Shown here in pieces: positions 47,013 to 52,000 of a stretch of 64,000 nucleotides of DNA (its first letter is position 1; every line of letters begins with the position of its first letter). The stretch covers positions 1 through 64,000 of the forward strand of contig NZ_JAGQCD010000006.1 in the NCBI RefSeq assembly GCF_024345975.1. Reading direction: 5' to 3'. The translations under genes were made by a program, and so were the position numbers. The notes beneath the pieces are model-generated. The model saw only the letters and a list, made by a program, of their open reading frames with translations. It was not told where the DNA came from and ran no database searches. The stretch is from Cyanobium sp. Cruz-8D1 (lineage in GTDB: Bacteria > Cyanobacteriota > Cyanobacteriia > PCC-6307 > Cyanobiaceae).

Positions 47013-48833
47013 ATGCAAGCGTTCCTCACGGTCGCCGCTACCCCAGATGGACTCATCACCCTGGCGGTGTTCGTCGGGGCCATGGTGTTGTTCGTCAGCG
47101 GTTGGCTCGCCCCCGAGGTGACCGGCCTGCTGGCGGCGGCCCTGCTGGTCAGCTTCCAGGTGCTCAAGCCGGATGAGGCGGTGCAGGGTTTCGGCAGCCC
47201 CGCCCTGATCACCCTGATGGGCCTGTTCGCCGTCTCCGCCGGCCTGTTCCGCAGTGGCGGCCTGGATCGGTTGCGGGCCCTGATCGGTTCCGATGCCGTG
47301 CGCAGCCCCAAGCGGATGATCGCCCTGATGGTGGGGGTGGTGGCCCCCATCTCCAGCTTCATCCCCAACACCCCGATCGTGGCCACCCTGCTGCCGGTGA
47401 TTGAGGGCTGGTGCCACCGGCGTGGCGTTTCTCCTTCCAAGGTGCTGCTGCCCCTGTCGTTCGCCACCGTGCTGGGCGGCACCATCTCCCTGCTCGGCAC
47501 CTCCACCAACCTGCTGGCCAGCGATGTGAGCCGCCAGCTGGGCTTCGGCTCCCTGGAGCTGTTCAGCTTCACGGCCATCGGCATCCCCGTGTGGCTGCTG
47601 GGGGGGCTGTACATGCTGATCGTCTCTGATCGGCTGCTGCCCGACCGCGGCCAGGGGGATGGGGACCTGCTGGGCGGCCTTTCCCGCGACGGCTACCTCA
47701 CCGACGTGCTGATCCCGGAGCAGTCCGAGTTGATCGGCCAGTCGCTGCACAACAGCCGCCTGCAGCGGCGCTTCGACGTGGACGTGCTGGAGCTCCACCG
47801 CGGCCAGGACAGCTTCAGCGCCCCCCTGGCCGACCTGCCCCTGCAGGCCGGCGACCGGCTGCTGCTGCGCTGCAACCGCGACAACCTGCTGCGTCTCCAG
47901 CAGGAGCACACCGTCACCCTCGCCCCGATCGGTGATCAGGAAGAGGACCTGCGCGAGCTGGCCGGCGAGACCACCTCCCCCCAGCGGGTGGTGGAGGTGC
48001 TGCTGCCCAACGGTTCCACCCTGGCCGGGGCGAGCGTGCGGGACATGCGCTTTCGCCAGCGCTACAACGCCACCCTGCTGGCGGTGCGGCGGGGGAACCA
48101 GGTGCTGCGCGAGCTGCTGGGCCGGGTGGTGCTGCAGGCCGGCGACGTGCTGCTGCTGCAGGCGCCGGTGGATGCCATCCGCGGCCTGCAGGCCAACAAC
48201 GACCTGGTGCTGCTCGATGAGCTGGAGAAGGACCTGCCCACCACCGATCGCAAGCTTGTCGCGATGGGGATCACGGCGCTGATGATCCTGCTGCCGATGC
48301 TCAAGATCCTGCCGTTGATGGCCTCGGTGCTGCTGGCGATGGTGGCGATGGTGGCCACGGGCTGCCTGCGCTCCGGGGAGCTGCTGCGCTCCGTTCGCTG
48401 GGATGTGATCCTGCTGCTGGGCTCCCTTTCCTGCTTCAGTGTGGCGATGCAGAAGACCGGCCTGGCGGAGGCCCTGGCCACCGACCTGCTCCAGTCCCTC
48501 CAGGGCTGGCCCGCCTATGGGGTGTTGCTGGTGGTGTTCGTGCTGGGTCAGCTGTTCACCGAGGCGCTCAGCAACGGCACCACCGTGGTGCTGCTGATCC
48601 CGATCGCCACCGAACTGGCCAAGGGGCTGGCGCTGCCACCGATGGCCTTCATCTTCGCCATCACCTTCGCCGCCAGCCAGAGCTTCCTTACCCCGATCGG
48701 CTACCAGACCAACCTGATGGTGTTCGGCCCGGGCCGCTATCGCTTCCTTGACATGGCCCGCTACGGCGCCCCCCTGTCCATCGGTCTGGCCCTGGTGGTG
48801 CCGTGGCTGATCTGCCGCCACTTCGGCCTGTAG
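47013..48833 (+). CDS. SLC13 family permease with two RCK_C domains
   Basis: A 606-residue transporter of the DASS/SLC13 type. The first half of the membrane domain (1-210) has SSFIPNTPIVATLLPVIEGW and LGGTISLLGTSTNLL (the SNT-type hairpin). Two RCK_C (TrkA_C) domains follow (about 230-300 and 326-392), and then the second half with ALSNGTTVVLLIPIATELA and SQSFLTPIGYQTNLMVFG. Relatives move sulfate, dicarboxylates or citrate with sodium. The RCK_C domains are regulatory ligand-binding modules. The start MQAFLTVAATP follows the KimA-like stop closely. Confidence 0.9.
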   Translation: MQAFLTVAATPDGLITLAVFVGAMVLFVSGWLAPEVTGLLAAALLVSFQVLKPDEAVQGFGSPALITLMGLFAVSAGLFRSGGLDRLRALIGSDAVRSPKRMIALMVGVVAPISSFIPNTPIVATLLPVIEGWCHRRGVSPSKVLLPLSFATVLGGTISLLGTSTNLLASDVSRQLGFGSLELFSFTAIGIPVWLLGGLYMLIVSDRLLPDRGQGDGDLLGGLSRDGYLTDVLIPEQSELIGQSLHNSRLQRRFDVDVLELHRGQDSFSAPLADLPLQAGDRLLLRCNRDNLLRLQQEHTVTLAPIGDQEEDLRELAGETTSPQRVVEVLLPNGSTLAGASVRDMRFRQRYNATLLAVRRGNQVLRELLGRVVLQAGDVLLLQAPVDAIRGLQANNDLVLLDELEKDLPTTDRKLVAMGITALMILLPMLKILPLMASVLLAMVAMVATGCLRSGELLRSVRWDVILLLGSLSCFSVAMQKTGLAEALATDLLQSLQGWPAYGVLLVVFVLGQLFTEALSNGTTVVLLIPIATELAKGLALPPMAFIFAITFAASQSFLTPIGYQTNLMVFGPGRYRFLDMARYGAPLSIGLALVVPWLICRHFGL

Positions 48834-48853
48834 GCATCCGCGGCCCGATCGGC

Positions 48854-49519
48854 TCAGGCGGGGGGATCCTGGGCCTCCCGTTCCAGCTGGGCCTCCTCGA
48901 AGCGGGCCACCAGCTTCGGCACCACCAGCACGATCACCAGCAGCACCAGGGCGCCGAGGCCGAACTCGACCACGCCCTTCACCATCTGATCGAAGGGAAT
49001 CCAGCGGCCGCCGAGCCAGGCCAGGCCCACCATCGTCGAGGCCCAGAGCACGGCCCCCAGCATGTTGAACAGCAGGAAGCGGCGGTAGGGCATCCGCACC
49101 GCGCCGGCGATGGGGCCGGCCAGCACCCGCAGCACCGCCACGAACCGGCCCAGCAGCACCGACTTGCCGGCATGGCGCAGGAACCGTTCCCGCAGGACCT
49201 CCATCTGCTCCGGACTGCGGCCCAGCAGCCGTCCGGCCCGCAGCAACAGCCCCCAGCCGGCCCGGCGCCCCACCCAGTAGCCGAGGTTGTCCCCCAGGAT
49301 CGCCCCGCCGGCCGCCGCCCCCATCACCCCGAGCACCTGCAACTGGCCGCTGCCGGCCGCATAGCCCGCCAGCAGGGTGACCGTCTCGCCGGGCAGGGGC
49401 ACGCCGGCGTTCTCCAGCAGCATGGCGCCGAAGACCACCCTGTAGCCCCAGTCGTGGAGGAGGGATTCCAGGGTGGTGAGGCTGATGGTCCCGTCGAACA
49501 CGGCCAGGGGCCAGGTCAT
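48854..49519 (-). CDS. DedA (VTT domain) family membrane protein
   Basis: A 221-residue membrane protein with the DedA signature: LLENAGVPLPGETVTLLAGYAAG, then GAILGDNLGYWVGRRAGW, and the conserved FVAVLRVLAGPIAGAVRMPYRRF with the Arg and Gly residues essential in E. coli members. DedA proteins are thought to be lipid flippases or scramblases for undecaprenyl-phosphate or phospholipids. It lies 24 bases after the deacetylase gene on the same strand, so it may be co-transcribed with the deacetylase and formyltransferase. Confidence 0.92.
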   Translation of the reverse strand: MTWPLAVFDGTISLTTLESLLHDWGYRVVFGAMLLENAGVPLPGETVTLLAGYAAGSGQLQVLGVMGAAAGGAILGDNLGYWVGRRAGWGLLLRAGRLLGRSPEQMEVLRERFLRHAGKSVLLGRFVAVLRVLAGPIAGAVRMPYRRFLLFNMLGAVLWASTMVGLAWLGGRWIPFDQMVKGVVEFGLGALVLLVIVLVVPKLVARFEEAQLEREAQDPPA

Positions 49520-49543
49520 CGCAACACGGAAGGAATCCAGACC

Positions 49544-50551
49544 CTATCTCCCCGGCCAGGCCAGTGTTCCGGTGCAGAGCCAGCGGCGGCGGCGCAGCGG
49601 ATTGGGGTGGGGCCCGGGCCAGGTGAAGCGGGGCAGGGCCAGGGCCGGGGTGGCGGTGGTGACCAGGGCGGCGTCGACGGTGGCCACCTGGAGGTAGTGG
49701 CGGCCGCAGATCTGGGCATCGCCGAGCAGATGGCTGTTGAAGGGATAGGAGAACGCCTGGGGCGCCTCCCCCAGCACCCGGCCGAGCACGGCGCTGGAGC
49801 GGACCAGTTCCTGCTCGAACTCCGCCGCGCTGATGTTGCAGCGGGGGACGTGGTGGTGGCCGTGGCTGCCCAGCTCGTGGCCGGCGTCCCGGGCCCGGCG
49901 CAGGTGGGCCTCTCTGGGGTAGAGGCGATCGGCCGCCGCCGCCAGCTCGCCGGCCGTGCCCCAGCGTTCCGCCAGCTCCGCCAGCAGCTCCCGCACCCTG
50001 GCGACGGGGGTGGCATCCCGCAGCCGGGCGATCAGGGCCGCACCCGCCAGATCGGCCGGCAGAGCCAGGCGCTGCTGGGCCAGCTCCGCCAGCCGGGGCG
50101 CCAGGGCGGGGTGGGCCCCATACCAGTAGAGGGCATGCTCCCAGACCAGCCCCCCGCCGGCGAGCATTCCGGACGACTGGAAGAACACGGCGGGGACGCC
50201 CAGCCCTTCGAGTACCTCCAGCCCCTCCTCGTAGTTGCAGCGCAGGCCGTCATCGAAGCTGACGATCACCGCGAACTCGTTGGCTGACGGGTACCGTCCC
50301 GCCCGCAGATCGGCGTAGGTGAGGAAGCGGGCGCCGCGGCGCTGCAAATAGCCCAGCTCCGCGGCCAGCTCGCCGGGGGGGATCGGCGGGACCCCGAAGC
50401 GGTCGAGGAAGGGCACCCGGCCCGGCTCGTCCACCCGGTGATAGAGCAAACACAGCACGTTCCCCCGCAGGCGCCGGCGCCAGAGGCGATCCAGCGGCGG
50501 CAGAAACAGCAGGTCCGCCGCCCGGTTGGTGACGCGCCCCAGGCGGCTCAT
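49544..50551 (-). CDS. polysaccharide deacetylase (NodB-domain, CE4) family protein
   Basis: A 335-residue protein. The NodB motifs are VIVSFDDGLRCNYEEGLEVL (catalytic Asp and zinc Asp), HELGSHGHHHV with the HxxxH zinc pair, and AFSYPFNSHLLGD (motif 3 position). The catalytic zinc triad appears complete, so it should remove acetyl groups from N-acetylated sugars. A long insertion (about 175-260) follows motif 1, as in envelope-glycan members. No clear signal peptide, so a cytosolic precursor substrate is possible. The start overlaps the formyltransferase stop by four bases. Confidence 0.85.
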   Translation of the reverse strand: MSRLGRVTNRAADLLFLPPLDRLWRRRLRGNVLCLLYHRVDEPGRVPFLDRFGVPPIPPGELAAELGYLQRRGARFLTYADLRAGRYPSANEFAVIVSFDDGLRCNYEEGLEVLEGLGVPAVFFQSSGMLAGGGLVWEHALYWYGAHPALAPRLAELAQQRLALPADLAGAALIARLRDATPVARVRELLAELAERWGTAGELAAAADRLYPREAHLRRARDAGHELGSHGHHHVPRCNISAAEFEQELVRSSAVLGRVLGEAPQAFSYPFNSHLLGDAQICGRHYLQVATVDAALVTTATPALALPRFTWPGPHPNPLRRRRWLCTGTLAWPGR

Positions 50552-51420
50552 GGCTGCTCCCCCCGCACCACCCGCACGGCCCCATCGCGGCGCCCCTGGT
50601 CGGCCAGGTAGGTGCGCACCAGCCCCCTGGCGATGCGGCGGTTGGCCAGCAGCCGCTGCCAGGGCTCGTAGCTGTAGCCGGTGCGCCGCAGGAACAGCTT
50701 GCCCTTCTCCCACTGGGGCACCCGCGGGGCGGTGCCGGCCTCGAGCCGGCGGGCCGCCTCGATCAGCAGCTCGATGCCCACCTGGAAGCTGCGCACCTCG
50801 ATGGTCTCGACGTCGTCGTCTGGTTCCATCGGCACCCTGGCCGACAGGATGATGTCGCCGCTGTCGATGCCGGGGTCGATGTGGTGCACCGTCACCCCCA
50901 CCAGCTCCGGGTGACCCTCCAGGAGCATGTAAAGGTTGCAGTTGGCCCCCCGCGAATAGGGCGACAGCCCGGTGTGCAGGTTGATGAGGCCGTGGCGGAT
51001 CGAGGGGATCAGCTCCAGCACCGGCGCCCGCAGCAGCTGGGTGCCGTTGACCAGGACGATGTCGGCGGAGAGCTGGCGCAGGAAGTCGGCGGTGCGCTGC
51101 TCGTTGATGGCCGACGTGACCAGCACCGGCACCTCGGCCGGCAGCTCCGGCGGGGCGCCGTTGTGGTGGAACAGCTGCCGCTGCAGGGCCGCGCCGCGGC
51201 GGTCGTGGGGCCGCAGCAGCACGCGGGCGATCAGCTGGCGCAGCAACCGCAGGGGCCGGCGGTATCTCGCCAGCCGGGTCGTCCAGCTGCGGCTGTCGGG
51301 CGGAGATACCTGCAAGACCACCCCCACCAGGGTGAACGCCTCGGCCACCCGCCGCACCAGGTGGCGCTGGTAGAGACCGTCGCAGCAGAGCACGGCCACC
51401 CGCAGGGAGCTCACGACCAT
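50548..51420 (-). CDS. formyltransferase-family protein (sugar N-formyltransferase-like)
   Basis: A 290-residue enzyme with the formyltransferase catalytic blocks: [11 protein letters not shown], then [19 protein letters not shown] and [18 protein letters not shown]147, H149 and D186 line up with the catalytic Asn-His-Asp of methionyl-tRNA formyltransferase, so the 10-formyl-tetrahydrofolate chemistry should be intact. It lacks the tRNA-binding C-terminal domain and has a charged helical tail instead. Together with the deacetylase that overlaps it, a sugar amine is the likely acceptor; this is inference. Confidence 0.82.
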
Positions 51421-51505
51421 GGCGTCGCCGGGCGCAGCATCATCTGCGGATGGTACGGACGGTGCGGCCGGAAGGCGGCACAGTGGGACCGATCCAGAGC
51501 CGCCC

Positions 51506-52000
51506 ATGGCCGTCCGAGACGTGCTGACCATCGGAGATCCCCGCCTGCGCCAGGTGAGTGCACCGGTGCAGCGATTCGATGACCCCGCCCTGCCGGTCCT
51601 GCTGCAGGACCTGCGCGACACCATGGCCGCCACGAACGGCGCCGGCCTGGCGGCCCCCCAGATCGGTGTACCGCTGCGGGTGGTGATCTTCGGCCTCAGC
51701 CACAACCCCCGCTACCCGGAGGCGCCCCCCATCCCGGAGACGCTGCTGATCAATCCGGTGCTCACGCCCCTCGGCGACGAAACGGACGATGGCGCCTGGG
51801 AGGGCTGCCTGAGCGTGCCGGGCTGGCGGGCCCTGGTGCCCCGCTGGCGCCTTCTGCGTTACCGGGCCTTCGATCCTGCGGGCCATCCCTTCGAGCGGCA
51901 GGTGGAGGGCTTCCATGCCCGGGTGGTGCAGCACGAATGCGACCACCTCGATGGGGTGCTGTTTCCGGATCGGATGCCGGCGGGGCTGCCCCATGGCTGA
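51506..52000 (+). CDS. def: peptide deformylase
   Basis: Removes the formyl group from the N-terminal methionine of new proteins. The 164-residue protein has all three motifs: [10 protein letters not shown] (45-54), EGCLSVPG (99-106, metal ligand C101) and HECDHLDG (143-150, metal ligands H143, H147 and catalytic E144). The start [15 protein letters not shown] is standard; an in-frame upstream Met would add an unrelated, low-complexity stretch. It is divergent from the formyltransferase gene and overlaps the next gene by eight bases. Confidence 0.96.

Follow-up and report, generated by a model that had tools for sequence, protein, structure and literature searches.

An overlapping formyltransferase and NodB-family deacetylase gene pair in Cyanobium as a candidate unit for replacing N-acetyl with N-formyl on envelope sugars

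The formyltransferase (FT) and NodB-family deacetylase genes that overlap within a 64,000-nucleotide stretch of the Cyanobium sp. Cruz-8D1 genome (here termed the window) probably constitute a unit for N-acyl exchange in an envelope glycan, their two putative activities converting an N-acetyl sugar to an N-formyl sugar. In the first step, a cytosolic NodB would N-deacetylate an acetamido sugar (of the GlcNAc type or another), most likely with the sugar attached to a lipid or a nucleotide. The FT would then transfer a formyl group from 10-formyl-tetrahydrofolate to the freed amine, and the resulting N-formyl sugar would end up in exopolysaccharide, LPS, or a nonulosonic acid. Replacement of acetyl by formyl on a sugar was deduced to be the best reading because FT and NodB genes are widely associated, the FT stands apart from Fmt and PurN, and the NodB is unlike ArnD. 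The evidence obtained comprises the folds of the two proteins, their catalytic residues, joint inheritance, repeated adjacency in either gene order, and the exopolysaccharide context of the pair in Caenimonas. A first-pass annotation of the window had read the pair in the same way, and this reading is supported by the association, the FT placement, and the NodB resemblance; its inclusion of a DedA gene in the unit is not.

Both genes lie on the minus strand (FT, positions 50548-51420; NodB, positions 49544-50551). The four-base overlap described in the first-pass annotation was located at positions 50548-50551, where the FT stop and the NodB start share the minus-strand motif ATGA, and we infer that the two genes are translationally coupled. 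The overlap is also 4 bp in L110, L111, L128, L130, L131, L132, L195-L198, and L203, 1 bp in L109, L113, and L205, and 8 bp in L208; gaps of 37 and 59 nt occur in L199 and L202, respectively, and L200 has an overlap of 38 nt with the starts chosen. The two frames are under purifying selection, with dN/dS values of 0.23 to 0.48 in five comparisons per gene. Scans of positions 48700-51700 for promoters and terminators returned none of either.

The genes on either side of the pair were judged to lie outside the unit. A DedA-family membrane protein gene (PF09335; positions 48854-49519, minus strand) follows NodB after a gap of 24 nt and is a conserved neighbor; a peptide deformylase gene (def; positions 51506-52000, plus strand), which the earlier description did not include, diverges from the upstream side of FT. 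DedA had been suggested as a possible flippase partner, but it is present in 39 of the 42 genus genomes irrespective of the pair and lies beside def at pairless loci, and it was rejected as a third member. The juxtaposition of a deformylase and a formyltransferase makes def a tempting functional partner, and this was likewise rejected since def adjoins DedA in pairless genomes. It is retained in pairless loci that hold both genes (e.g., L084, L086-L091, and L097), and no def match was found in pairless L085 or L096. DedA and def are resident neighbors. Other window neighbors are presumably APC, SLC13, SulP, and P-type ATPase proteins, labels that we assigned as assumptions.

Close FT orthologues (66 to 100% identity) were found in 18 of 400 sampled family genomes, all 18 in the genus of the window, and distant relatives were found in seven more family genomes from other genera. 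NodB was found in the same 18 genomes, together with decayed pieces in genome G010. Within the genus, the pair occurs in 18 of 42 genomes, with both genes present every time and at one site. Inspection of the site in all 18 placed the pair on the SulP-like/def side of DedA; in L093, which has no def or DedA match, the pair adjoins the SulP-like gene. G028 (L084), which lacks the pair, has 38 nt between its DedA and def matches, corresponding to an empty site, and in G010 (L092:4297-5368) decayed FT and NodB remnants lie between def and DedA, which is direct evidence that the unit was lost. On a tree of neighboring genes built by a quick method from 29 of the 42 genomes, with the G010 remnant coded as absent, presence of the pair changes five times, both genes together. 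Sister loci on this tree include L094, which has the pair (metagenome-assembled genome), and L084, which does not. Frameshifts were noted in both FT and NodB of G025 (L042:8109-9983) and in NodB of G008 (L037:9895-10898), representing pseudogenes or sequencing errors.

The pair was also found outside the genus. Scanning of genome contigs gave 16 loci, of which the one not from cyanobacteria was in the betaproteobacterium Caenimonas koreensis DSM 17982, with 59% (FT) and 56% (NodB) identity and an identical 4-bp overlap. That pair lies inside an exopolysaccharide cluster, whose neighbors were named by reading translations rather than by Pfam; they include glycosyltransferase-, polymerase-, FkbM methyltransferase-, and carbamoyltransferase-like genes as well as genes resembling those for GDP-fucose synthase, UDP-xylose synthase, Wzm/Wzt, Wzc, and CpsB. 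In other picocyanobacteria, weaker FT relatives overlap a NodB gene, recognized by Pfam, by 4 bp with the gene order reversed (L128, L130, and L131), and another weaker relative (L129) is without NodB.

Eight plasmid regions around FT matches were examined, and FT and NodB were adjacent in one of them, an annotated NodB-FT arrangement on a Haloarcula halobia plasmid with a 4-bp overlap and with glycosyltransferase and sulfatase genes around it. The Agrobacterium, Halapricum, and Halorubrum regions carry an FT-like gene without NodB, Fmt adjoins def in the S. meliloti region, and the S. kummerowiae region carries no annotation. A region of a Variovorax sp. RA8 plasmid (L138:2710-7787) holds an Arn-type cluster (DegT, glycosyltransferase, FT, UXS, and ArnD) and was used as a control. 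On a Sulfitobacter plasmid (L139:4878-6532), a "methionyl-tRNA formyltransferase" gene overlaps a PIG-L de-N-acetylase gene, with DegT aminotransferase and sugar transferase genes adjoining; this PIG-L protein would be a second deacetylase fold paired with FT. A plasmid search with the L128 FT gave nothing at an E value of 1e-10. The viral contigs searched yielded one partial FT relative, a stretch in IMGVR_UViG_3300028800_000076 (L117:5001-5228) that shares 41% identity with the window FT over its residues 117-196.

A different arrangement was observed in four exopolysaccharide-like clusters of Comamonadaceae, where FT adjoins a conserved protein of approximately 375 to 425 aa with an ESDDWG motif (L124:6311-8396, L125:6011-8156, L126:8812-10904, and L127:7459-9607). 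The idea that these proteins are distant NodB relatives was not borne out, as profile comparison gave a probability of 0.3% and no PDB match was found up to an E value of 5; the one protein tested had no Pfam family above the cutoff, with only GH57 below threshold. Matches to the ESDDWG protein were absent from the short flanks of L165-L167.

The association was assessed in a wider sample by searching a profile of 11 FTs against 241 genomes of the family and 185 from the class to which Caenimonas belongs. The 43 loci found outside the genus of the window comprised 18 short FTs, a class set by reading open-frame length and N-terminal match, and 25 long matches, mostly Fmt sized. NodB adjoins 12 of the 18 short FTs (L151-L156, L160, L164, L168, L169, L170, and L192) and none of the 25 long, Fmt-like matches; no NodB adjoins the remaining six short FTs (L150, L157, L165-L167, and L177). 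These counts are to be read with flanks of at most 1.5 kb, shorter at contig ends, with NodB HMMs built from pair members, which favors positives, and with several positives closely related to profile rows. L150 and L164 were themselves in the search profile, and without them NodB adjoins 11 of 16 short FTs. The L170 NodB was recognized by reading and Pfam rather than by the NodB HMM. The order is NodB-FT in L151-L154, L168, and L170 and FT-NodB in L155, L156, L160, L164, L192, and the window, and the two genes of L169 are on divergent strands. Across 32 genomes, PF01522 matches numbered only 0 to 7 per genome, with any match in 22, and chance adjacency should therefore be well under 1% per locus. 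Association of the FT and NodB genes well beyond the window genome is thus supported, the opposite of the unrelated neighborhoods that the first-pass annotation had named as evidence against a unit.

The same data bear on the view that NodB and FT perform two separate tailoring steps, acting either on distinct sugars or at distinct stages in one glycan, and are adjacent through co-membership of a cluster. This is unlikely. It would fit the many such enzymes present in glycan clusters, the six short FTs without a NodB neighbor, and a PF01522 match approximately 12.5 kb from FT on the same contig in G1010 and G1157. However, in the home genus the pair sits outside any recognized glycan cluster and is nevertheless both lost and retained as two genes, and closely overlapping genes are seen again in either order and with NodBs of different subfamilies. 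In the NodB tree, support was 98/99 for the window clade, 100/99 for the L131 group, 91/88 for L199/L200, and 100/100 for L128/L130, and four subclades are common to the FT and NodB trees. The L208 NodB grouped with an unpaired Haloarcula NodB (99/99, with long branches present), a placement that points to a separate recruitment of NodB.

The assignment of the second gene as a NodB-domain deacetylase with zinc motifs, made in the first-pass annotation, was upheld. The putative polysaccharide N-deacetylase of the NodB/CE4 type (335 aa) matched PF01522 as its sole Pfam family (E value of 8.5e-16; 58.5 bits against a gathering threshold of 23.1). Asp100, Asp101, His230, and His234 did not vary in 14 sequences including the window or in a broad alignment of nine (window, Caenimonas, and seven distant sequences); we take them to be the catalytic Asp and the metal-binding Asp-His-His. 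The AF2 model (pLDDT of 82.8) has the CE4 barrel fold and matched BA0330, IcaB, PplD, PgaB, and BpsB with Z scores of 21.9 to 24.8 and rmsd of 1.9 to 3.1 over 200 to 218 residues, the scores being 24.8 for BA0330, 24.1 for IcaB, and 23.6 for PgaB. NCBIfam comparison of the pair NodBs gave weak matches, below cutoff, to HfsH, PgaB, IcaB, and spore/peptidoglycan deacetylases; the window NodB did not reach the equivalog cutoffs for HfsH (36.5 versus 400) or PgaB (19 versus 321.9). By model structure and HMMs, it resembles the IcaB/PgaB/PplD de-N-acetylases rather than ArnD, with de-N-acetylase activity remaining putative. Several partner NodBs (those of L199 and L203, for example) lack a start codon 5' of the catalytic domain and hence a leader, which suggests that the pair NodBs are cytosolic enzymes, located where the folate donor is. 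Together with the likeness to de-N-acetylases, this favors cytosolic acetyl removal before formylation.

An Arn-like scheme would run in the opposite direction: the FT would formylate a nucleotide amino sugar, the product would be handed on to undecaprenyl phosphate for deformylation by the NodB-fold enzyme, leaving a final sugar with a free amine. DedA, a family with links to the trafficking of undecaprenyl phosphate, adjoins the pair in the window, although its UptA model match was 58.3 bits against a cutoff of 250 and its presence is independent of the pair. The Arn pathway (PMC12650200) likewise combines the two folds, that of NodB in ArnD and that of the FT in the formyltransferase domain of ArnA. 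Two long FT matches, L182 (G1071) and L191 (G1158), have a PF01522 protein 1.5 to 1.7 kb away; these were not counted as adjacent and are probably true Arn loci. The NodB data nevertheless make this scheme decidedly unlikely for the pair. The ArnD model NF011923 found the Variovorax ArnD used as a positive control (2.5e-70) but gave no match to the window NodB at an E value of 0.1 or to five other pair NodBs at 0.01, and ArnD came far lower in the NodB structure list (Z score of 10.8, rmsd of 3.2, 163 residues). Furthermore, DegT, glycosyltransferase, and UXS genes ring the Variovorax Arn cluster, whereas none was recognized next to the window pair. Reading of the window genes, with Pfam applied to four of the proteins, recognized no ArnB, ArnC, or UDP-GlcA decarboxylase, and the 11 DegT matches in the whole window genome include none on the contig of the window (C65).

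The FT gene has an ATG start and encodes 290 aa with the Formyl_trans_N fold. It matched PF00551 (E value of 4.7e-15; 56.2 bits against a gathering threshold of 26.1), and no second Pfam domain was found at an E value of ≤0.01, indicating that the tRNA-binding C-terminal Fmt domain is absent. Asn147, His149, and Asp186 did not vary across 14 sequences (window, cyanobacterial orthologues, and Caenimonas) or in a broad alignment of 11 (window, three close, and seven distant sequences), in agreement with the catalytic residues and the missing domain noted in the first-pass annotation. In profile comparison, the FT matched the sugar N-formyltransferases WbkC, FdtF, WlaRD, and PseJ. The modeling of both proteins that the annotation had proposed gave the expected folds. 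For the FT, the known structures matched were the FDH hydrolase domain, Fmt, ArnA, WbkC, and PurN, all with Z scores of 15 to 19; the scores for ArnA (17.8), WbkC (16.4), and FdtF (14.9) are compatible with a sugar N-formyltransferase fold. A single-sequence PDB search ranked the hydrolase domain of 10-formyl-THF dehydrogenase first. The structural matches of the model do not single out one substrate.

In a 35-protein tree, the window FT grouped with that of Caenimonas (100/100), apart from its own Fmt, PurN, and the Variovorax Arn FT, which runs against the non-sugar placement that the first-pass annotation had allowed for. The grouping of 25 short FTs was weakly supported (94/83), with the Haloarcula and L205 FTs outside it. 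It is highly improbable that the FT is a tRNA-type, purine-type, or 10-formyl-THF-hydrolyzing relative that has been kept next to NodB and def by accident: its top structural relatives are the FDH hydrolase domain and Fmt (tied within 1 Z), but the window genome already contains two other formyltransferases, interpreted as Fmt and PurN, the former grouping with the annotated S. meliloti Fmt (100/99), the FT scored far under the cutoffs of the NCBIfam Fmt (TIGR00460 equivalog, 46.9 versus 201.5), PurN, ArnA, and PRK07579 models, and def stays where the pair is gone.

Acetyl-to-formyl exchange is therefore retained as the preferred reading. The pairs in distant bacteria and one archaeon suggest a common, so far undescribed route to N-formyl sugars. 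More tentatively, they may represent a general, mobile two-enzyme cassette of bacteria and archaea that exchanges N-acetyl for N-formyl on completed or carrier-linked sugars and has been assembled more than once from different NodB subfamilies (perhaps also from PIG-L, as in Sulfitobacter). Three NeuB matches were found in the window genome (L211 and L212, on G000 contigs 33 and 91, and G000:C63:1559-2293), two with DegT within approximately 4 kb, suggesting nonulosonic acid synthesis and making a legionaminic-type sugar possible as the substrate of the window pair. A GlcNAc-type residue is possible as well. The L198, L199, and L202 pairs lie near genes read by eye as NeuB/NeuC/NeuA, and NeuB is also near the NodB-less FT of L201. 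At some loci an aminotransferase could supply the amine, as DegT is directly upstream of FT in L199 and approximately 4 kb away from the pair in L196.

If the deacetylase partner is real, any N-acetyl sugar could be converted and N-formyl sugars should be sought more widely. A cassette of this kind would supply a missing route to N-formyl at N-acetyl-derived positions, as in 5-N-formyl-legionaminic acid, and would allow fast change of surface antigens under pressure from phages or grazers. The patchy, both-or-neither presence among close relatives (e.g., L094 versus L084) provides natural contrasts for direct testing, best from cultured Cyanobium/Synechococcus.

No description of an FT-NodB pair was found in the literature searched, a weak absence as coverage of subscription papers was thin; the passages available from PMC11431627, PMC2823697, PMC5484520, PMC12815270, PMC6137143, and PMC12650200 contain no account of it. 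Passages from texts naming both enzyme types concern Proteus (Arn operon), Helicobacter canadensis (the two gene types listed apart), and siderophores, and PMC5994716 is a corrigendum on Burkholderia Arn.

Among known systems, Arn (the ArnA formyltransferase domain plus ArnD) is alike in having Formyl_trans_N and NodB-fold enzymes on one sugar. It differs in that the pair NodB is IcaB/PgaB-like rather than ArnD-like, in that ArnB/ArnC/UXS-like genes were not recognized beside the pair, and in that the reaction predicted for the pair runs the opposite way. Characterized sugar FTs act on nucleotide amino sugars whose amines are made by aminotransferases. WbkC, FdtF, WlaRD, and PseJ have the fold and the catalytic Asn-His-Asp in common with the window FT by profile, and WbkC and FdtF also by structure, whereas the window FT falls under the curated ArnA and PRK07579 cutoffs and its recurrent partner is a deacetylase. 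The HfsH/IcaB/PgaB N-deacetylases share the CE4 fold and residues and are among the best HMM and structural matches; unlike them, the window NodB is far under the equivalog cutoffs and has an FT partner, and a leader is apparently absent in several partners. For 5-N-formyl-legionaminic acid, the 5-N should derive from an N-acetyl sugar, and a deacetylase would therefore be needed. According to PMC6137143, this sugar is contained in a glycan of Halorubrum sp. PV6, and HrrPV6_1050, co-transcribed with the Leg genes, is the proposed FT gene; N-formyl thus stands where N-acetyl is usual, as predicted for the product of the pair. The main text on that pathway (PMC6137143) has no word starting with "deacetyl," and a deacetylation step is the gap in the Halorubrum route that a pair of the FT-NodB type could fill.
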